From positions 62,001 to 126,000 of the forward strand of contig NZ_JDTH01000012.1 of assembly GCF_000710615.1 (NCBI RefSeq): a DNA stretch of 64,000 bases, given 5' to 3'. Shown here one piece after another: positions 8,417 to 43,939 of the stretch. The notes under the pieces were generated by a model, which searched no databases, had not been told where the DNA came from, and saw only the letters and a list, made by a program, of their open reading frames with translations. How positions within the stretch are numbered: the first letter of the stretch is position 1; every line of letters begins with the position of its first letter. Made by a program: the position numbers and the translations under genes. Origin of the DNA: Haladaptatus cibarius D43 (GTDB lineage: Archaea > Halobacteriota > Halobacteria > Halobacteriales > Haladaptataceae).

Positions 8417-11395
8417 TCATGGGTCGGCCGGATCGGCGAGGAGAAACGGAATCGTCACCACCAGCGCGCTGACGGTAGCGAGAAGGAACGATCCGAGGGC
8501 TACCGTAGCGAGTATCCGAACCGATGCCGTAATCGACAACTGAACGCCGAACACGGTCGAGAGACCGAGCGCTTCGAGCGCCAGTCCGACAAGGAGGGCC
8601 GCCACGATTCCGACGACAATAGACACGACCGCAATCCGCCACACGTCGGCGAGGACGAGACAGAGTATCTGTCGCCGAGTGGCACCGGTGGCGCGATGAA
8701 TCGCCACGGCCCGCCGTCTCGCGTGGACGCTCTGTGCGAACGTCGCCGCCGTGCTTCCGACCGTGGTCAGACCGGCGAGAACCGCCATCGAAACGAGCAA
8801 CGTCTGTAGGTCGCCAAACACGCTCCGAACGGCGTGCCCGATTCCCGATCCCTTCGAGAAGTCGCTGTCGCGGGCGATGGTCGAGTAGACGCGTTCGTCG
8901 CCGATAATGCGATACTGGTCTGTGGCGAGAGCATCGCCGTCTGAAACGAGACGGACGGCATGTTTGCCGGGTGGAAGCTTGCCAGACTGCGAGTCAGACG
9001 CGAGTTCGACCGTCGTCGATTCGATTTGGTGCGGAGGGAGCGTCACGGTTCGCGTTACGGTCTTCCCCGACGTGACGACGGAAACCCGTCTCGTCAGCGT
9101 TCTCTCCCATGGATTGACGAGCGTCACGTCGGCGGTCGGACGAGCGTACACACTGGCGGGATTCGGCGTCACGCGAACCTGTCCGCCGAACGGGAGTGAC
9201 GTCCCCGACTCGACCGAAACGTGCGTTGTGTTCGCTCGCTTCCCCTTCGAAGCGGTCAGCGTGTAATTCCCTGTCCGGTTCGGGAGCCCGACGGTTGCGA
9301 CGCCGTCCTCGTTCGTTGTCCGCGTTGTTCCCGCGAGTTCGACGGTCGCACCTGCCACCGGTTTGCCGTTCTGTGTTACCACAGGGACGAGCATCTGCGC
9401 TCCCGGTGGCCCGCGATTCGGCACGGTGTCGAGCGACAGCGGCGGCTGGCGATAGACGGTGATTCGCTTCGCCCGCGACCCGATGCGGAGCATGTGGTTC
9501 CCCGGTTTTTCGACGGTGAGGTTTAGCGTCACGCTCGAACTCCCGCCCGCCGCCGGCGACGCGACGAAGGACTTCGATTCCCCGGCGAGGCGGACGGTGA
9601 ACTGCCGTTTCTCGGCGCTGTCCTCGAAGTTGTGAACGTCTAATCGCACGGTGAACGGATCGCCGACCGATGCGGCCGACGGCGCGTCCACGCCGGTCAC
9701 GCCGATGCCAGTATCGCCGCCGGTGAGGTTCGGCGTGCCGCCTGAAGTTCTGATGAACTGAACGGTTCCCGGATTCGTCGAGAGGTCGTGTGCGGTCGAG
9801 AGCGGAATGACCAACTGGTCGTCGAGGACGCCCGGTGCCTCGAACGTACCGACGATGCGAACCCGGGTGGTTGCGGGCGACGACGCGCCGCCTAGTGTGA
9901 CCGAGTCGCCAATGCCGATGTCGAGCGTCCGTGCGAGGTCGCGGCCAACGACCGCATCGTACTTGGTACGCGGGGCGTGCCCGGTGACGAGTCGTGCGTC
10001 GGAGACGGCGCGGAACGAGGAGAAGTTCCCCCCGCGTACCAAGTATGGCTGTCCATCTCGAAGCTGTGGAACGATAATTTCCGGACTCGCCGCGAGTCCC
10101 TGCGAGCGGAGCGCCGACGCGTAGTCGGCGTCGATTCGACTCGCCATCGGATAGGGAGCGTCCGATTCGGAAACGGTTCCGCTCGAAGGGGTAGCAAGCG
10201 GCGTCAATGCGGTCGCCAGCGACCCCGAGAGGAGGATAATGAGTGCGAACACGGCCAAGGTGGTCGCGGTCGGAACGAGTGCCCGCCACCGCAACAGCGC
10301 CGTGCCGGAACGCGCTCGGAACGACCCAGAATCAGCGGTACGTCGTGATTTCGGCGAATGAATCGTTGTCAGCGATGCGGGCGATTTCGACACCGCTGGC
10401 CACGCGGCCAGAATGCCAGCTAACAGGCCGACGACTGTGACGCAGACGAACATCGGGAGTAAAACCATGAGTGACATGGTCGTGACGTGCGGCGCGAGCG
10501 AGAGCGGGACGCCTGCGTAGACCGCGACGTTGACGGCGAGGCGCGTGACGATGACGCCGCCCGCGTACCCGAGCAAGACGCCCGTGAAGGTGAGCAACCC
10601 CGCTCGAGCGCTGAACAGGGTAAGAACCTGTCTCGGCGTGCCGCCGGTCGTACGGACGACGCGGATGGCCGTTGTCCGCTCGCGAACGCTCATCCGCGTC
10701 ACGTTGTAGAGGACGACGAGGACGAGAACACCCGCGAGTATCGTCACCCCGGTCAACACCCGAAGCACCTCCCGGACACCTGCGAGGAAGTACAGGAACA
10801 GCGAGGGAGTCGCAGTGCCGTCGTCTCCGAGCCGGTCAAACCCGTTTCCGGATGCACGCTCGATGACGAATGCACCCGAACCGCCCGTGTCGCGGACAGT
10901 TGATGGGGTGCCGACGTACCACGAGCGGGGGAATGCTGAGTCGCCGGTGTAGGGCGACACGCGAAGACGAACGCTCCCGTCGTCGGTTTCGAACCGATGC
11001 GTCGTCGGCTGCTCCACTGCCCCCTTGACCCCCGTCTCGGGCGGCGGCGGGAGACGGGCCGTCCGCCACGCGACAGAGTAGTTAGAGAGTACCCTCGGCG
11101 CGTCCGGTGGAACCCCGATTAGGAGGTGGTCGGTACCGTTTCGCGAGTCAGTCGCAGTCGGGAGCAGAATGGAGGATTGGCTCGTGTGGTTCCGTGCAGT
11201 CGCGACCGAGTCGAAGTGTCTCACCGTCATTGAGTCCGAAAACTGGTTCGAAACCGATTCGGCCTCGGTGCCGACGGAGAGCAACAGCAACGTGGTGCCG
11301 ACGAGAAGTGCGACGACAACGGCGACGACGAGAATCGTGAGACGGTCGCGCCGCGACCATCGTGTGAGCAAGGGTCGGCGGTAGGTTCGCGTCAT
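8417..11395 (-). CDS. giant FtsX/MacB-type ABC transporter permease (copy 2)
   Basis: This is a paralogue of the permease at 3501-6494. It has the same opening (LLTRWSRRDRLTI), first helix (about 19-42), three-helix FtsX block with VVRTTGGTPRQV, central helix, extracellular MacB-like core, CARDB/Ig-like segment (GKPVAGATVELAG) and terminal helices with IHRATGATRRQI. The native length is 992 residues from the ATG giving MTRTYRRPLL. The extracellular segment carries many N-x-S/T sites, which suits a protein facing the high-salt exterior. It is the first gene of the minus-strand run, with 71 bases between its stop and the ATPase start. The substrate is unknown. Confidence 0.85.
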   Translation of the reverse strand: MTRTYRRPLLTRWSRRDRLTILVVAVVVALLVGTTLLLLSVGTEAESVSNQFSDSMTVRHFDSVATARNHTSQSSILLPTATDSRNGTDHLLIGVPPDAPRVLSNYSVAWRTARLPPPPETGVKGAVEQPTTHRFETDDGSVRLRVSPYTGDSAFPRSWYVGTPSTVRDTGGSGAFVIERASGNGFDRLGDDGTATPSLFLYFLAGVREVLRVLTGVTILAGVLVLVVLYNVTRMSVRERTTAIRVVRTTGGTPRQVLTLFSARAGLLTFTGVLLGYAGGVIVTRLAVNVAVYAGVPLSLAPHVTTMSLMVLLPMFVCVTVVGLLAGILAAWPAVSKSPASLTTIHSPKSRRTADSGSFRARSGTALLRWRALVPTATTLAVFALIILLSGSLATALTPLATPSSGTVSESDAPYPMASRIDADYASALRSQGLAASPEIIVPQLRDGQPYLVRGGNFSSFRAVSDARLVTGHAPRTKYDAVVGRDLARTLDIGIGDSVTLGGASSPATTRVRIVGTFEAPGVLDDQLVIPLSTAHDLSTNPGTVQFIRTSGGTPNLTGGDTGIGVTGVDAPSAASVGDPFTVRLDVHNFEDSAEKRQFTVRLAGESKSFVASPAAGGSSSVTLNLTVEKPGNHMLRIGSRAKRITVYRQPPLSLDTVPNRGPPGAQMLVPVVTQNGKPVAGATVELAGTTRTTNEDGVATVGLPNRTGNYTLTASKGKRANTTHVSVESGTSLPFGGQVRVTPNPASVYARPTADVTLVNPWERTLTRRVSVVTSGKTVTRTVTLPPHQIESTTVELASDSQSGKLPPGKHAVRLVSDGDALATDQYRIIGDERVYSTIARDSDFSKGSGIGHAVRSVFGDLQTLLVSMAVLAGLTTVGSTAATFAQSVHARRRAVAIHRATGATRRQILCLVLADVWRIAVVSIVVGIVAALLVGLALEALGLSTVFGVQLSITASVRILATVALGSFLLATVSALVVTIPFLLADPADP

Positions 11396-38108: not shown

Positions 38109-38468
38109 ATGATGGAGGATGCGATCACTGACGGAACCACGGAAGAGACAGAGACCTGCTGTACACCACCCGGAGACGTCGACTCGGATGCGATGGCGAC
38201 AGACCTCCAAGTACTGACCGCGATGGGGAACGACACACGATACGAACTGCTTCGCCGAATCTCGAACGCCGATGACGGCGTCTGCGTCTGCGATCTCGAA
38301 GCCGCAGTCGGCGTCAGTCAGAGCGCAGTCAGCCAAGCACTCTCCCGCTTGTACACTGCAGGACTGGTTACACGCCGTAAAGAGGGATCCTGGCGGTACT
38401 ATGAACCGACTGAGACGACTGCGGCCCTCCTCGAAACTCTCGACGACCTGCGGGGTGCCCATGAGTAA
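38109..38468 (+). CDS. arsR: ArsR-family arsenite-responsive repressor
   Basis: A 119-residue winged-helix repressor. The wHTH spans about residues 35-110, with VCVCDLEAAVGVSQSAVSQAL. The CVC pair at the start of the DNA-binding helix is the type-1 arsenite site of ArsR proteins. An additional CC lies near the N-terminus (ETETCCTPPG). Its stop overlaps the arsM start as ATGAGTAA, so the two are co-translated. The dyad just before the ATG is the likely operator, giving autoregulation relieved by As(III) or Sb(III). Confidence 0.92.
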   Translation: MMEDAITDGTTEETETCCTPPGDVDSDAMATDLQVLTAMGNDTRYELLRRISNADDGVCVCDLEAAVGVSQSAVSQALSRLYTAGLVTRRKEGSWRYYEPTETTAALLETLDDLRGAHE

Positions 38469-39306
38469 CGATACTGAGACGGTGGCCGGTGACCGCGACC
38501 CTGAGGAGGCACGGAAGATGGTACGCGAACGCTACAGCACTATCGCTACGGATGGTCAGGACTGCTGTGGCGACGTCGGTATTGATGTCACCGATGAAGG
38601 AGGGTGCTGTGACGGAAATGAAGATGCGACCGGGAGCGAACGCCTCGGGTACGATACGGACGATATCGCATCGGTCGCCGACGGCGCAGATCTCGGTCTC
38701 GGATGTGGCAACCCGAAGGCGTTCGCCGAGATGGCGCCCGGCGAGACAGTGCTCGACCTTGGCTCCGGTGCGGGCTTCGACTGCTTCCTCGCCGCACAGG
38801 AGGTCGGCCCGGACGGAGCCGTCATCGGTGTCGACATGACACCAGAGATGGTCTCGAAAGCGAGGGAGAACGTCGCGAAAAACGACCCCGACAACGTCGA
38901 ATTTCGCCTCGGCGAAATCAGCCATCTTCCCGTTGCTGACGCGACCGTCGACGTCGTCATCTCGAACTGTGTCGTCAACCTCGCTCCCGAGAAGCAACGC
39001 GTGTTCGACGACGCCTACCGCGTTCTCAAGCCCGGCGGGCGCATCGCCATCTCAGACGTCGTCCAAACCGCGCCGTTCCCCGACGATGTCAAGATGGACC
39101 CGGACTCGCTAACTGGCTGTGTCGCCGGTGCATCAACCGTTGCAGGTATTGAAGCGATGCTCGACAGTACCGGCTTCGAAGCAATCGAGATAGCGCCCAA
39201 GGATGAGAGCACCGAGTTCATCAGTGATTGGGATGCCGATCGCGATCTCGGTGAGTATCTCGTCTCTGCCACTATCGAAGCCCGGAAGCCTCCACAAAAC
39301 CCCTAA
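38461..39306 (+). CDS. arsM: arsenite S-adenosylmethionine methyltransferase
   Basis: A 281-residue class I methyltransferase that methylates As(III) with SAM. It has VLDLGSGAGFDCF (SAM motif I), the As-binding Cys residues in LGLGCGNP, VISNCVVNL and LTGCVAGAS (the three-Cys set of ArsM), and extra N-terminal Cys pairs (DCCGD, GGCCDG). The ATG overlaps arsR. The frame extends upstream inside arsR but has no family similarity there. With arsR it forms a two-gene operon for arsenite detoxification to methylated species. Confidence 0.95.
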   Translation: MSNDTETVAGDRDPEEARKMVRERYSTIATDGQDCCGDVGIDVTDEGGCCDGNEDATGSERLGYDTDDIASVADGADLGLGCGNPKAFAEMAPGETVLDLGSGAGFDCFLAAQEVGPDGAVIGVDMTPEMVSKARENVAKNDPDNVEFRLGEISHLPVADATVDVVISNCVVNLAPEKQRVFDDAYRVLKPGGRIAISDVVQTAPFPDDVKMDPDSLTGCVAGASTVAGIEAMLDSTGFEAIEIAPKDESTEFISDWDADRDLGEYLVSATIEARKPPQNP

Positions 39307-39388
39307 CTCACTGAAAACCACTGACAGGCTTGTCCAGAGGAGAATTTTGCGATTGGAGGGACGAACGAATCCCCTTATTACGTCTACG

Positions 39389-39553
39389 CTACGGTTCGTC
39401 CGGATAGAACTCGTCGAACAGCGCCTTGACGCGTTGTTCTATGTCGTCACGAATCTCGCGGACAGTGTCAAGGTCTTGCCCGTGCGGATCGTCTAACGCC
39501 CAGTCTCGAACGTCGACGTTCTCGGCGTCCAGTTCTAGCGTCGAACAGCCCAT
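39389..39553 (-). pseudogene. arsC: arsenate reductase (low-MW phosphatase type), C-terminal fragment
   Basis: 54 residues starting MGCSTLELDAENVDVRDWAL, then DDPHGQDLDTVREIRDDI. This is the last third of a thioredoxin-type ArsC, including the DP-x-G motif with its general-acid Asp. The front with the P-loop Cys (CxxNxxRS) is missing. Directly upstream, six bases away, is the stop of the second arsR, so a deletion has joined the two genes. Not functional. Confidence 0.85.
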
Positions 39554-39559
39554 TGTGGT

Positions 39560-39958
39560 TTACAATCGTAGCTCCCGCGATCCATCCAGAGCGATGAGGA
39601 CAGCATTGGCGCGCGCTGTCGCACGATATTTTCTCCACTTCCCCTCTTTTCGGCGAATGATCAGTCCAGCATCGGTGAGCTGTGACAGGGCGTGACTGAT
39701 CGCGCTGTCGCTAACATCGAGCAGCGGCGCAAATTCGCAGACGCAGAGTTCCTCGCCAGCGACGTGGAGGATACGAACAATCTTGTACCGGGTTTCGTTC
39801 GCGAGCGCCGATAGCAACCCGACATCTTGGTCTAGCGCTGGCCCACCCGCGGTCGCATCAATTTCTTCGAGTTCCGCCAGACGCTGGGAGACCTCCTCAT
39901 CACCACATCCACCCCGTTCGTCGGCAAGATACCGCTGTAGTCGCTCAGTCGATGACAT
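39560..39958 (-). CDS. arsR: ArsR-family repressor (second copy), possibly truncated at the 3' end
   Basis: About 132 residues. A variable acidic N-terminus (YLADERGGCGDEE) is followed by the wHTH with ELCVCEFAPLLDVSDSAISHAL, so the CxC metal site is present. The last residues (LDGSRELRL) run into the deletion that removed the front of arsC, so the extreme C-terminus is probably foreign or shortened. An ATG two codons upstream is an alternative start. It is divergent from the arsD operon, and the dyad at 40179 lies between them. Confidence 0.85.
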   Translation of the reverse strand: MSSTERLQRYLADERGGCGDEEVSQRLAELEEIDATAGGPALDQDVGLLSALANETRYKIVRILHVAGEELCVCEFAPLLDVSDSAISHALSQLTDAGLIIRRKEGKWRKYRATARANAVLIALDGSRELRL

Positions 39959-40178
39959 ACACATCGATTGAGCAGATAGTGGATTAAGCATTATGGAGCG
40001 GCTCGCGAACTGCGTGTAGTCCACTGACGACCAATCATTTTAGGATTCTATAAGATGGCATCAAAAATACTCTGGAAGCAATCCTCTATTTTGACGTGTT
40101 ACCACATCCTAAACGCTGTATATGTTCTGAATCACGCGTTGGCTACGTCCGTTCTGAGCCGAAGAGCTTATGAGTATG

Positions 40179-40196
40179 ATTGAATAATTGTTCAAT
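40179..40196. promoter_or_regulatory. possible operator of the divergent arsR / arsDA units
   Basis: ATTGAA-TAATTG-TTCAAT is a dyad with perfect 6-bp arms in the 320-base gap between the second arsR and arsD. The arrangement suits a shared ArsR site. It lies about 85 bases before arsD, farther than the arsR-arsM operator does from its gene. Confidence 0.5.
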
Positions 40197-40282
40197 TGAA
40201 TGCGAGGCAAAGTCGTCCAATCCATCATCGATGGTAGCCGCATTGTCGGCCAAACAATTGAGCGAATGATCCATTTTCATCA

Positions 40283-40612
40283 ATGACTGAACTCACCCTG
40301 TACGAGGAGGCGATGTGTTGCTCCACCGGCGTCTGTGGTCCTGACCCCGACGAAGAACTCGTTGAACTCAGTGCTGCCCTCGACCAACTCGAATCGGAAT
40401 TTGAGGACGTCGACGTCTCGCGGGCGAACATGCAGCACAACATCGACCAGTTCCTCGAAACGCAGCACATCTACGATCTGGTCGAAGAACACGGCCCCTC
40501 GGTTCTGCCGATCACCGTCGTCGACGACGAGATCGTCGCCAAGTCCGAGTACCTCTCGTACGACGAACTTGCGGCAGCACTCGAAACTACCACCCAGACA
40601 CAAGAGGCCTAA
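40283..40612 (+). CDS. arsD: arsenite metallochaperone ArsD
   Basis: The 109-residue protein has the full ArsD metal site, Cys12-Cys13 and Cys18 (MCCSTGVCGPDPDEELVEL), within a thioredoxin-like fold. ArsD carries As(III)/Sb(III) to the ArsA ATPase. LPITVVDDEIV matches the family core. arsA follows after three bases, so the pair is co-translated. The second CxC/CC sites of long ArsD proteins are absent, as in many archaea. Confidence 0.95.
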   Translation: MTELTLYEEAMCCSTGVCGPDPDEELVELSAALDQLESEFEDVDVSRANMQHNIDQFLETQHIYDLVEEHGPSVLPITVVDDEIVAKSEYLSYDELAAALETTTQTQEA

Positions 40613-40615
40613 CGC

Positions 40616-42547
40616 ATGAGCACAACGCCCACCGATGCGCGAGCGATCGTCGAACCGACGAGTGATGAGACCGAATTCGTCTTCTTCAGCGGCAAAGGCG
40701 GCGTCGGCAAGAGCACCGTGAGTTGCGCGACGGCGACCTGGCTCGCGGACAACGACTACGAGACGCTGCTGGTGACGACCGACCCTGCGCCGAACCTCTC
40801 GGACATCTTCGGGCAGGAGATCGGCCACGATGTCACCACAATCGACGACATCGAGAACCTCTCGGCCATCGAGATCGACCCGGACACGGCGGCCGAGGAG
40901 TATCGACAAGAGACGATCGAACCGATGCGACAGTTGCTCGACGACGAGCAACTCGAAACCGTCGAGGAACAACTCAACAGCCCGTGTGTCGAAGAGATCG
41001 CCGCATTCGACAACTTCGTTGACTTTATGGACCGCCCCGGGTACGATGTGGTCGTCTTCGACACGGCGCCGACCGGTCACACGATCCGGTTGATGGAGCT
41101 CCCTTCCGACTGGAACGCTGAATTGGAGAAAGGCGGCTCGACCTGCATCGGGCCGGCAGCCTCGATGGAGGAGCGCAAACAAGACTACGAGCGTGCCATC
41201 GACACGCTCCAAGACGACGAGCGGACTTCATTCGCGTTCGTCGGCAAGCCCGAGGATTCTTCGATTGACGAGATCGAGCGCAGTGCAAGCGACCTCGGCG
41301 AGCTTGGGATCGAGTCCCAACTGCTGATCATCAACGGGTATCTCCCCGAGTCGGTGTGTGAGGATCCGTTCTTCGAGGGGAAACGAGAAGACGAGCAGGC
41401 TGTTATCGAGCGCGCACGGAGGGAGTTCGGTGCCGACGCGATGGCGACGTACCCACTCCAACCGGGCGAAATTGCAGGGCTTGAGCTACTCGCAGATGTC
41501 GGTGGCGTTCTGTACGACGGCGACGAGGCGACCGTCGATGTCGGGACGGCGACTGACGTAGACACTGAAACCGCGGTCGACTTCGAGTCGATGGCTGACG
41601 CTGAGGCGGTCGCCGACCAGCTTCAACCGGGCGACGAGACGCGGTATCTCTTCTTTACCGGGAAGGGCGGCGTCGGCAAGAGTACGATCGCCTCGACGGC
41701 GGCGACGAAGCTCGCCGAAGCTGGCCACGAAACGCTCGTCGTCACAACTGACCCGGCCGCCCATCTTGAGAACATCTTCGGCGAACCGGTCGGCCACGAC
41801 CCAACATCGGTCAGCCAGGCGAACCTCGATGCGGCGCGGATTGACCAAGAGAAAGCGCTCGAGGAGTACCGCACGCAGGTCCTCGACCACGTCACCGAGA
41901 TGTACGAGGACAAGGAGGACACCCAGATCGACGTGGACGCGGCGATCGCAAACGTCGAAGAGGAACTGGAATCACCGTGTGCCGAAGAGATGGCCGCCCT
42001 CGAGAAGTTCGTGAGCTACTTCGACGAGGACGGCTACGACGTCGTTGTCTTCGACACCGCCCCCACGGGGCACACGCTCCGACTGCTCGAACTTCCCTCC
42101 GATTGGAAGGGCTTCATGGATTTGGGTTCGCTGACGAAGGGCGCCGCGCCCGCGAAAGGCGACCAGTACGCCGAGGTCATCGAGACGATGAAGGATCCGA
42201 AACAGAGTACGTTCGCGTTCGTGATGTACCCCGAGTATACCCCGATGATGGAAGCCTACCGGGCCGCTGCAGACCTCAAAGATCAAGTCGGGATCGAGAC
42301 CTCGCTGGTGGTCGCAAACTACCTGCTCCCCGAGGAATACGGCGACAACGCCTTTTTCGAGAATCGCCGCGCCCAACAGGCGGAGTACCTCGGCGAGATC
42401 AGCGATCGGTTCGACGTGCCGATGATGCTCGCTCCGCTGCGCCAAGACGAGCCGGTCGGACTGGACGAACTACGCTCGTTCGGTGAAGAGATCACCGGGC
42501 TGGACGACATCACCGAGGAGACTGAGGCGGAGGTGACGGCGTCGTGA
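40616..42547 (+). CDS. arsA: arsenite-stimulated ATPase ArsA (two-domain)
   Basis: A 643-residue protein with two homologous halves, each with a deviant Walker A (FSGKGGVGKST at about 24; FTGKGGVGKST at about 346) and the DTAPTGH transduction motif. The three Cys that form the As(III) site in bacterial ArsA have counterparts: SPCVEEIAAF and GSTCIGPAA in the first half, SPCAEEMAAL in the second. ArsA normally powers the ArsB/Acr3 pump, but no pump gene is present in this window. Its stop overlaps the YlbF-family start (GTGA), so translation is coupled. Confidence 0.95.
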   Translation: MSTTPTDARAIVEPTSDETEFVFFSGKGGVGKSTVSCATATWLADNDYETLLVTTDPAPNLSDIFGQEIGHDVTTIDDIENLSAIEIDPDTAAEEYRQETIEPMRQLLDDEQLETVEEQLNSPCVEEIAAFDNFVDFMDRPGYDVVVFDTAPTGHTIRLMELPSDWNAELEKGGSTCIGPAASMEERKQDYERAIDTLQDDERTSFAFVGKPEDSSIDEIERSASDLGELGIESQLLIINGYLPESVCEDPFFEGKREDEQAVIERARREFGADAMATYPLQPGEIAGLELLADVGGVLYDGDEATVDVGTATDVDTETAVDFESMADAEAVADQLQPGDETRYLFFTGKGGVGKSTIASTAATKLAEAGHETLVVTTDPAAHLENIFGEPVGHDPTSVSQANLDAARIDQEKALEEYRTQVLDHVTEMYEDKEDTQIDVDAAIANVEEELESPCAEEMAALEKFVSYFDEDGYDVVVFDTAPTGHTLRLLELPSDWKGFMDLGSLTKGAAPAKGDQYAEVIETMKDPKQSTFAFVMYPEYTPMMEAYRAAADLKDQVGIETSLVVANYLLPEEYGDNAFFENRRAQQAEYLGEISDRFDVPMMLAPLRQDEPVGLDELRSFGEEITGLDDITEETEAEVTAS

Positions 42548-42912
42548 GCGAAGCCGTGTCGGAAACGACAGCCGTCGAGGAGTCACTTCAGACGTTCATC
42601 GAGACGCTCCGCGACTCAGCGACCTATCAACAATTCGTGGACGCGAACGAACAACTCGAGGCCGACGAGGAGACAAAGTCCTTACTCGAAGCGTACCAAG
42701 AAAAACAGCAGAAGTTGCAGGCGGACGAGTTCGATTCGTCGATCATGAGCGAATTACAGGAGCTACAATCCGAGGTCTCGAACAACGACACCATTCAACA
42801 GCACCGAGCAGCACAAGAGGAACTCGTTGCCCTCCTTGAGGAGACGAACGACGTCATCAGCGAACAAATCAGGCAGGAGTTCGCGCAGTCTCTTGGGGGT
42901 GGATGCTGTTGA
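42544..42912 (+). CDS. YlbF/YmcA-family protein with a Cys-Cys C-terminus
   Basis: 122 residues, nearly all alpha-helical, matching the YlbF family (VEESLQTFIETLRDSATYQQF; LLEAYQEKQQKLQ). The end is SLGGGCC, a flexible Gly linker and vicinal dithiol that I do not associate with ordinary YlbF proteins. A GTG start overlaps the arsA stop and its own stop overlaps the next gene by ten bases. The four genes arsD to the 63-residue protein are therefore one coupled operon. A role in handing arsenite or a metal centre to ArsA is an inference from the dithiol and position. Confidence 0.82.
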   Translation: MSEAVSETTAVEESLQTFIETLRDSATYQQFVDANEQLEADEETKSLLEAYQEKQQKLQADEFDSSIMSELQELQSEVSNNDTIQQHRAAQEELVALLEETNDVISEQIRQEFAQSLGGGCC

Positions 42913-43094
42913 GCGCCTCTGACGATGAAGTTCTGACCGCCGCTGAAGCGCTCGGTGCAGACCTCGATGTGGCACAATCGGAGGTAACGGCTGACGAGTT
43001 CGAGTCGCTGCTGATCGAGTGCAACGAAGCGATCAACGACGGAATTGGTCTCGAGTACGGTGAGGTCTGCGGCGCTGGAAGCGACTGCTGCTAA
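42903..43094 (+). CDS. 63-residue acidic protein ending in CGAGSDCC
   Basis: The ATG lies within the end of the YlbF-family gene and the TAA lies at the foot of a hairpin. The product is helical and acidic, with a single internal Cys (LLIECNEAI) and a C-terminal cluster of three Cys (EVCGAGSDCC), closely like an As(III)-binding triad. I do not recognise a family. Its overlap with the preceding gene and the shared Cys-Cys ending suggest the two small proteins work together with ArsD/ArsA. Confidence 0.72.
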   Translation: MLLSASDDEVLTAAEALGADLDVAQSEVTADEFESLLIECNEAINDGIGLEYGEVCGAGSDCC

Positions 43095-43114
43095 CACCAG
43101 TTCTGGTGTTTTCT
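43093..43114 (+). terminator. hairpin terminator at the end of the arsDA operon
   Basis: AACACCAG-TT-CTGGTGTT is a perfect 8-bp stem with a two-base loop followed by TTCT. It begins inside the stop codon of the 63-residue protein gene. It could also be the terminal inverted repeat of the neighbouring IS remnant, but its placement fits termination best. Confidence 0.6.
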
Positions 43115-43126
43115 CAGTATTTCTAT

Positions 43127-43939
43127 ATGGCTTCGACCTCTGCGTCCCGGCGTGCTATTTTCAGACAAATCGCACAACGAGCGCACGTTGAGTGGCCAAC
43201 ATATGATTCGACACCGACCTGTGATCGTACCTCACTTGCCGGATTACGCTCGGACGTTCAGATCGTCTCAGAAACCTGGTTTACGCATCTCGACCGCGAT
43301 TCGGTTGAGCAGTTCGTCCTCGTACTTCCATTGGCCTACTTCAGCTTCGAGGCTCACGATTGCTATACACGCTCGACACGTTACGAGATGGACTCCCTCT
43401 TTCGGGTGTTCGTCCTGAAGGAGCTCCACGGGTTGGAGCACGAGACAACACTGTACGAGTACCTAGAGAACCGTCCTGTACTCTGTGAGCGACTGGGTTT
43501 CGAGACGATCCCAGAGCAGTCAACACTATGGCGGAACTGGCATAAGCGGTTCACCCCTGACCTCCGAGAGACGGTCGAAACGGCGGCTCGAACGATCCTC
43601 ATCAAAGCCCAGAATGCTGGTGTAGGGATTCCGCGTGAACCGGAACGAAAGCTTCGGCACCACGATGACGGGTCTGGTGAGTTACAACCAGCCGATCAAA
43701 CCACGTTGGAGCAGGCAGAGAAGATCACCGACCACGTCAGCCGCATCGTGTTCCCGGCGTTTTCGCTGGACCGTGAGGACGGCTGTGAGATAGACGAGAA
43801 CACCTACTGGAACCTCCAGACGTATCTCGGGTTGCGCGAGCGGCTACAGGTCGAGTTGACCGGAGAGTACGAGTACTCACCAATTGTGACGGCTGACAAC
43901 ACGCTGACGCTGTTGAAGAAGGAGACTGGTATCGGGTAG
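43127..43939 (+). pseudogene. haloarchaeal IS transposase, C-terminally truncated
   Basis: About 270 residues starting MASTSASRRAIFRQIAQRAH. WLWY-type transposase features are absent, but the repeated neighbours at 52253-52552 (QTIATTSRNHWPAYDT) and 53210-53658 (DYEMESLVRVSLLTELHG; WHQRFTPDLRE) are homologous along its length. It is therefore a mobile-element protein present in at least three broken copies here. The N-terminal and middle region is intact, but the frame ends early at TLLKKETGIG with no complete DDE domain visible. It sits directly after the ars operon terminator. Confidence 0.7.

Follow-up and report, generated by a model that had tools for sequence, protein, structure and literature searches.

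HcsL and HcsS, two small proteins with cysteine tails, as probable dedicated companions of the archaeal ArsD-ArsA arsenite system

What do two small proteins, each ending in a pair of adjacent cysteines, contribute to an archaeal arsenite operon? The question is raised by a run of four genes on the forward strand of the window, i.e. the whole stretch of 64,000 nucleotides that was analysed. The run opens with arsD (40283..40612), coding for an As(III) metallochaperone (NF033727, 115.7 bits, cut-off 90), and continues with arsA (40616..42547), coding for a two-domain arsenite-pump ATPase of the ArsA_halo family (NF041417, 1192.8 bits, cut-off 800). It is followed by hcsL (42544..42912), which has a GTG start, overlaps arsA by 4 nt and codes for a protein of predicted YlbF fold ending in GGGCC (NF041416, 155.7 bits, cut-off 140; PF06133, 59.9 bits, cut-off 23.9), and by hcsS (42903..43094), which overlaps hcsL by 10 nt and codes for a 63-residue protein ending in CGAGSDCC (NF041415, 87 bits, cut-off 55). 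Read from the sequence, the codons of the terminal cysteine pairs lie at 42904..42909 (+ strand) in hcsL and at 43086..43091 (+ strand) in hcsS. The initial annotation had described these four genes as one overlapping run and had listed C12, C13 and C18 of ArsD together with three metal-binding cysteines of ArsA; the run is found at these positions, and all of the listed residues are present. In the alignment the three ArsD cysteines are kept in 44 out of 44 loci. The window ArsA has five cysteines (positions 37, 124, 177, 248 and 455), all invariant across 47 aligned rows, and we take Cys124, Cys177 and Cys455 to be the equivalents of the metal-site residues of E. coli ArsA.

The neighbours of the run also belong largely to arsenic metabolism. 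An ArsR/SmtB-type regulator gene, arsR (39560..40024, minus strand; NF033788, 76.8 bits, cut-off 55), is divergent from arsD, and next to it lies a remnant of arsC (39389..39553, minus strand), the C-terminal 54 residues of an arsenate reductase of the low-molecular-weight phosphatase type that covers only profile positions 112-144 of PF01451. A 442-bp deletion at 39558, seen in comparison with Haloferax sp. Q22, took out most of this gene. The arsenite methyltransferase gene arsM (NF008823, 354.6 bits, cut-off 263) is placed at 38461..39306 (+ strand) with a chosen start, the reading frame itself opening at 38272. Directly 3' of hcsS there is a reading frame with a transposase domain (DUF772; 43106..43939, + strand; PF05598, 27.5 bits, cut-off 23.1), which is likely a mobility neighbour, outside the HcsL-HcsS system. 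Apart from the arsC deletion, positions 38385-43845 share 97-98% identity with a Haloferax sp. Q22 contig, even though the window genome is from a different family, that of Halorussus aquaticus. This identity across families, together with the adjacent transposase-domain frame, suggests that the ars region was acquired by recent horizontal transfer.

The two small proteins had been proposed as new parts of an ArsA system. This novelty does not hold at the level of protein families, since both are covered by NCBIfam as "halo-CC-star" proteins (NF041416 for HcsL, NF041415 for HcsS; ArsA_halo is NF041417), the window copies exceed the curated cut-offs, and the three names are found on 23 annotated haloarchaeal plasmid records in RefSeq. 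In the literature searched we found no paper on the function of HcsL or HcsS, nor on YlbF proteins in a haloarchaeal arsenic context. That the two proteins belong to the ArsA operon, on the other hand, is borne out across haloarchaea. In a sample of 293 Halobacteriales genomes, where presence was defined as an NCBIfam score over the cut-off, ArsA_halo occurs in 45, i.e. about one in six. HcsL is present in 42 of the 45 genomes with ArsA_halo and in 2 of the 248 without, HcsS in 44 and 4 genomes, respectively (Fisher p ~1e-45 for co-occurrence, treating genomes as independent, which related genomes are not). The gene order is arsD-arsA-hcsL-hcsS with neighbours overlapping or abutting, and over 44 loci the protein distances co-vary between ArsD and ArsA (0.89), HcsL and HcsS (r 0.82) and HcsL and ArsA (0.67). 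Co-occurrence, operon position and co-variation together give good support to the view that the archaeal ArsD-ArsA system for arsenite efflux has HcsL and HcsS as its dedicated accessory proteins.

There are a few irregular cases. One ArsA_halo genome (G067) has an HcsL that scores 134.4 bits, just under the cut-off of 140, and another (G290) has hcsL in two pieces. An insertion of ~1.1 kb splits hcsL and leaves hcsS intact at L099 ~9375-11080. HcsL and HcsS adjoin a truncated ArsA in two genomes (G068, G251), and HcsS is present with no ArsA nearby in two others (G014, G173). The only one of the 45 ArsA_halo genomes in which both helpers are missing is G010, where no ArsD, HcsL or HcsS was found near a full ArsA_halo with all five cysteines (L136:7234-9144). 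At L140:4847-5539, acr3 and arsC are followed by a frameshifted remnant of HcsL, with an adjoining ArsP_1 permease gene and no ArsA.

A phylum-wide search with HcsS gave three clear cases outside Halobacteriales. Two genomes, G357 (locus L252) and G478 (locus L253), carry the order arsR-arsD-ahpD-arsA-hcsL-hcsS-acr3. The L252 proteins score 1075.8 bits for ArsA_halo, 61 for HcsS, 103.3 for HcsL (below the NCBI cut-off of 140) and 452.6 for Acr3, while the L253 genes were assigned by eye from translations nearly identical to those of L252. In both loci HcsL ends in GGCC and HcsS in CAPAGGCDCGGKC. The AhpD-like gene between arsD and arsA lies at L252:10241-10570 (profiled) and at L253:5472-5846. 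The third genome, G548, contains two tandem HcsL-HcsS-like pairs (L254:7429-8713) and no ArsA in the fetched stretch; its HcsL tails read GGCY and GGCR, without the second cysteine. A gene for an EFR1-type ferredoxin is close to these pairs. The "halo" label of the three families is thus too narrow, as L252 and L253 hold the whole set plus acr3 outside Halobacteriales.

The cysteine tails themselves are persistent. Every intact copy of HcsL that was aligned ends in CC, all but one in GGGCC. A scan of named genomes covered 61 haloarchaeal loci and found HcsS in all 61, with a terminal CC in 54 and without it in 7; the scan pattern contained the HcsL tail, therefore these loci are no test of that tail. 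HcsS has, in addition, a near-invariant cysteine in the second helix and one cysteine ahead of the tail. An absence of the CC tails from orthologues would have spoken against the initial annotation, and the tails are found to persist in HcsL and, for the most part, in HcsS. In single-chain AF2 models both proteins are helical and the last residues have pLDDT < 50, i.e. the tails are predicted to be disordered.

The model of HcsL superimposes on RicF (6prk_A) with a Z of 11.9 and an rmsd of 1.8 over 108 residues, which predicts a helical protein of the YlbF/RicF fold. Its C-terminal arm is rich in glycine, predicted to be disordered and closed by two cysteines. HcsS matched nothing in Pfam, and a Foldseek search with its model gave no match either, which for so small a model is not evidence of a new fold. 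The HcsS profile does match the C-terminal 32 columns of chromosomal haloarchaeal YlbF (E 1.1e-7) and the C-terminal 33 of HcsL (E 1.1e-6). With the Cys tail removed it still scores 33.2 and 29.5, respectively, against maxima of 17.2 and 17.3 in 60 column shuffles. HcsS thus seems to be related to YlbF but shorter, with a helical hairpin retained and a Cys-rich arm of its own; as the profiles are shallow (Neff ~2.6), we consider this relation supported, not proven. The resemblance of HcsS to a YlbF reduced to its last helix plus a Cys tail is a new point.

The chromosomal YlbF deserves attention, as it bears on how the tails are to be read. It belongs to the same family as HcsL (profile match E 6e-22), and 217 of the 293 genomes have a match to the HcsL profile when chromosomal YlbF is counted in. 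Both proteins carry the CC, but the chromosomal YlbF has residues after it, ending in GGCC plus one to three residues (vicinal CC in 26 of 27 sampled sequences, CGC in the remaining one). In the tree it stands apart as a group with full support. The near-invariant CC can be seen at L190:5472-5873 (G000:C2), L146-L151 and L168-L187. In the window genome we read the neighbours of the chromosomal YlbF gene as HIT-like and Dph2-like genes; ars genes are not among them. Chromosomal haloarchaeal YlbF is split from the YlbF of f21, a different family of the same phylum, with support of 100/100 each, and the 17 f21 rows displayed lack a Cys tail. The YlbF/HcsL tree gave neither the branch order nor the origin of the CC tail. 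A CC tail had been taken to imply As(III) binding. With the same pair at the end of the chromosomal YlbF, the tail is not an arsenic signature by itself, and we do not use it as a stand-alone argument.

Where would the arsenite go? The operon had been described as lacking a pump gene, and the window operon does contain neither ArsB nor Acr3. This description does not extend to the relatives: several have Acr3 in or beside the cluster, in L252 and L253 directly after hcsS, so a system without a pump is rejected for them. By table count, Acr3 lies within ~6.5 kb of ArsA in nine haloarchaeal loci and ArsP_1-type permeases in six. Such permeases are found near ars clusters in L101, L102, L103, L105, L112, L135 and L140, some with a thioredoxin-like gene. 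Genome-wide, Acr3 over the cut-off is rarer with ArsA_halo (16/45) than without it (148/248, p 0.003). The window genome as a whole has no Acr3 over the cut-off and no ArsB; what it has is two matches to ArsP_1 and a single SBF protein, which matches Acr3 weakly. This only SBF protein of the genome (L189:8632-9624, G000:C11) has a Cys in the stretch PCIDYVITFTDLA, and its contig holds metal-ATPase-like genes. ArsB was rejected as the partner, with just 3 weak matches in 48 genomes. ArsA homologues have been proposed by Castillo and Saier to drive ArsB, ArsP, CstA and Acr3 (PMC2963123).

We favour the reading that HcsL and HcsS are dedicated YlbF-fold partners of ArsD and ArsA that relay As(III) by means of flexible Cys tails, and we give it a probability of roughly 0.4. 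HcsL would associate with HcsS as RicA does with RicF, and the two cysteine arms together would form a thiolate site. ArsD or ArsA might load this site with As(III) or Sb(III), which would then be handed to a membrane pump, Acr3 where present and another transporter elsewhere. The relay reading is preferred because of the RicF-like fold predicted for HcsL, the absence of RicT from the 16 haloarchaeal genomes tested and the precedent of MerA, in which a flexible C-terminal Cys pair delivers Hg(II) (PMC4500099). In L252 and L253 the hcsL and hcsS genes are flanked by arsA and acr3, which counts for it too, as do the predicted disorder of both tails, the metal cluster that the tail cysteines of RicA and RicF ligate together (PMC6751060), the G548 HcsL copies, which are away from ArsA and have no second Cys, and the cluster with the same genes on pNRC100, which is reported to give arsenite resistance. 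Counted against a relay are the CC of chromosomal YlbF away from ars genes (one genome viewed), which means that a CC need not mean arsenic, the 7 out of 61 loci in which HcsS has no terminal CC, and the full ArsA without ArsD, HcsL and HcsS in G010.

The same tails could serve other ends. Among solved structures, RicA and RicF come closest to HcsL, and the cysteines of their C-terminal tails jointly bind a [4Fe-4S] cluster (PMC6751060). HcsL and HcsS might likewise hold an Fe-S cluster, as in the Bacillus RicAFT complex, and with it sense redox state or metalloid on behalf of ArsA or the operon transcripts. The initial annotation had hinted at Fe-S clusters from the YlbF/YmcA complexes. In Bacillus, however, RicT supplies the rest of the cluster and RicAF takes up none without it (PMC6751060), while RicT (PSP1) is missing from all 16 haloarchaeal genomes tested; membership in a RicAFT complex is rejected for this reason. 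Moreover, adjacent cysteines that ligate one Fe-S cluster are almost unprecedented (PMC6751060), and we hold a cluster-bearing sensor to be unlikely.

A role as adaptor or latch, by which ArsA would be docked to the pump while the tails bind As(III) only as a signal or serve docking, seems to us equally unlikely. It would suit the gene position between arsA and acr3 and the use of HcsL and HcsS with differing pumps, and the tails of Bacillus RicA and RicF are required for RicT binding (PMC6751060), but docking alone does not explain invariant cysteines. We think it still less probable that the tails work as a dithiol couple in redox reactions, either feeding electrons to ArsC or ArsM or keeping the thiols of ArsA and ArsD reduced. 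Many HcsL-HcsS clusters do contain arsC and arsM, and some of them have AhpD-like, thioredoxin-like or Rdx genes close by. In the fetched neighbourhoods, however, the link of the pair to ArsA is much tighter than that to ArsC (35 loci) or to ArsM (13 loci), and the arsC of the window is a remnant.

Family membership, linkage to ArsA and conserved tails are thus observed, while the fold is predicted. If HcsL and HcsS do relay arsenic, the YlbF fold would take on metal transfer beyond the Ric complex. More speculatively, and with considerable doubt, HcsL-HcsS could be a second arsenic-handling module, a pair of YlbF fold whose C-terminal thiol arms move As(III) between ArsD/ArsA and interchangeable pumps. 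If true, this would help to explain ArsA in haloarchaea such as Halobacterium NRC-1, where the ArsB that was tested is dispensable.

The ars cluster (arsADRC, arsR2M) on plasmid pNRC100 of NRC-1 has arsC-arsR divergent from arsD-arsA-hcsL-hcsS-arsR-arsM. The arsD-arsA-hcsL-hcsS set and its order are the same as in the window; the differences are that in NRC-1 arsC is intact and a second arsR with arsM follows hcsS, whereas in the window arsC is a remnant and arsM lies on the other side. According to reviews, deletion of the arsADRC region makes NRC-1 more sensitive to arsenite while deletion of the chromosomal arsB has no effect, and a novel pump was proposed on these grounds (PMC1447603, PMC3600143), which makes this cluster a classic case. 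The consulted portions of the reviews make no mention of HcsL or HcsS. These two conserved, named and unexplained proteins of the NRC-1 cluster are a clear genetic target.

It is also useful to set the locus beside systems that are known in more depth. The bacterial ArsDAB and ArsA-Acr3 systems share with the window ArsD and a two-domain ArsA with metal-site cysteines; the window adds the HcsL-HcsS pair and has an operon without a pump gene. The YlbF/YmcA family (RicF and RicA of Bacillus subtilis; PF06133) shares its fold and family with HcsL, and both RicA/RicF and HcsL/HcsS are paired small proteins with cysteines near their C-termini. In HcsL and HcsS, however, the CC is at the very end, and the genes are in an ars operon rather than a Ric context. 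MerA has an unrelated fold, but its C-terminal Cys pair is flexible, as the tails of HcsL and HcsS are predicted to be; delivery has been tested in MerA, and by analogy the tails of HcsL and HcsS may do the same for As(III).
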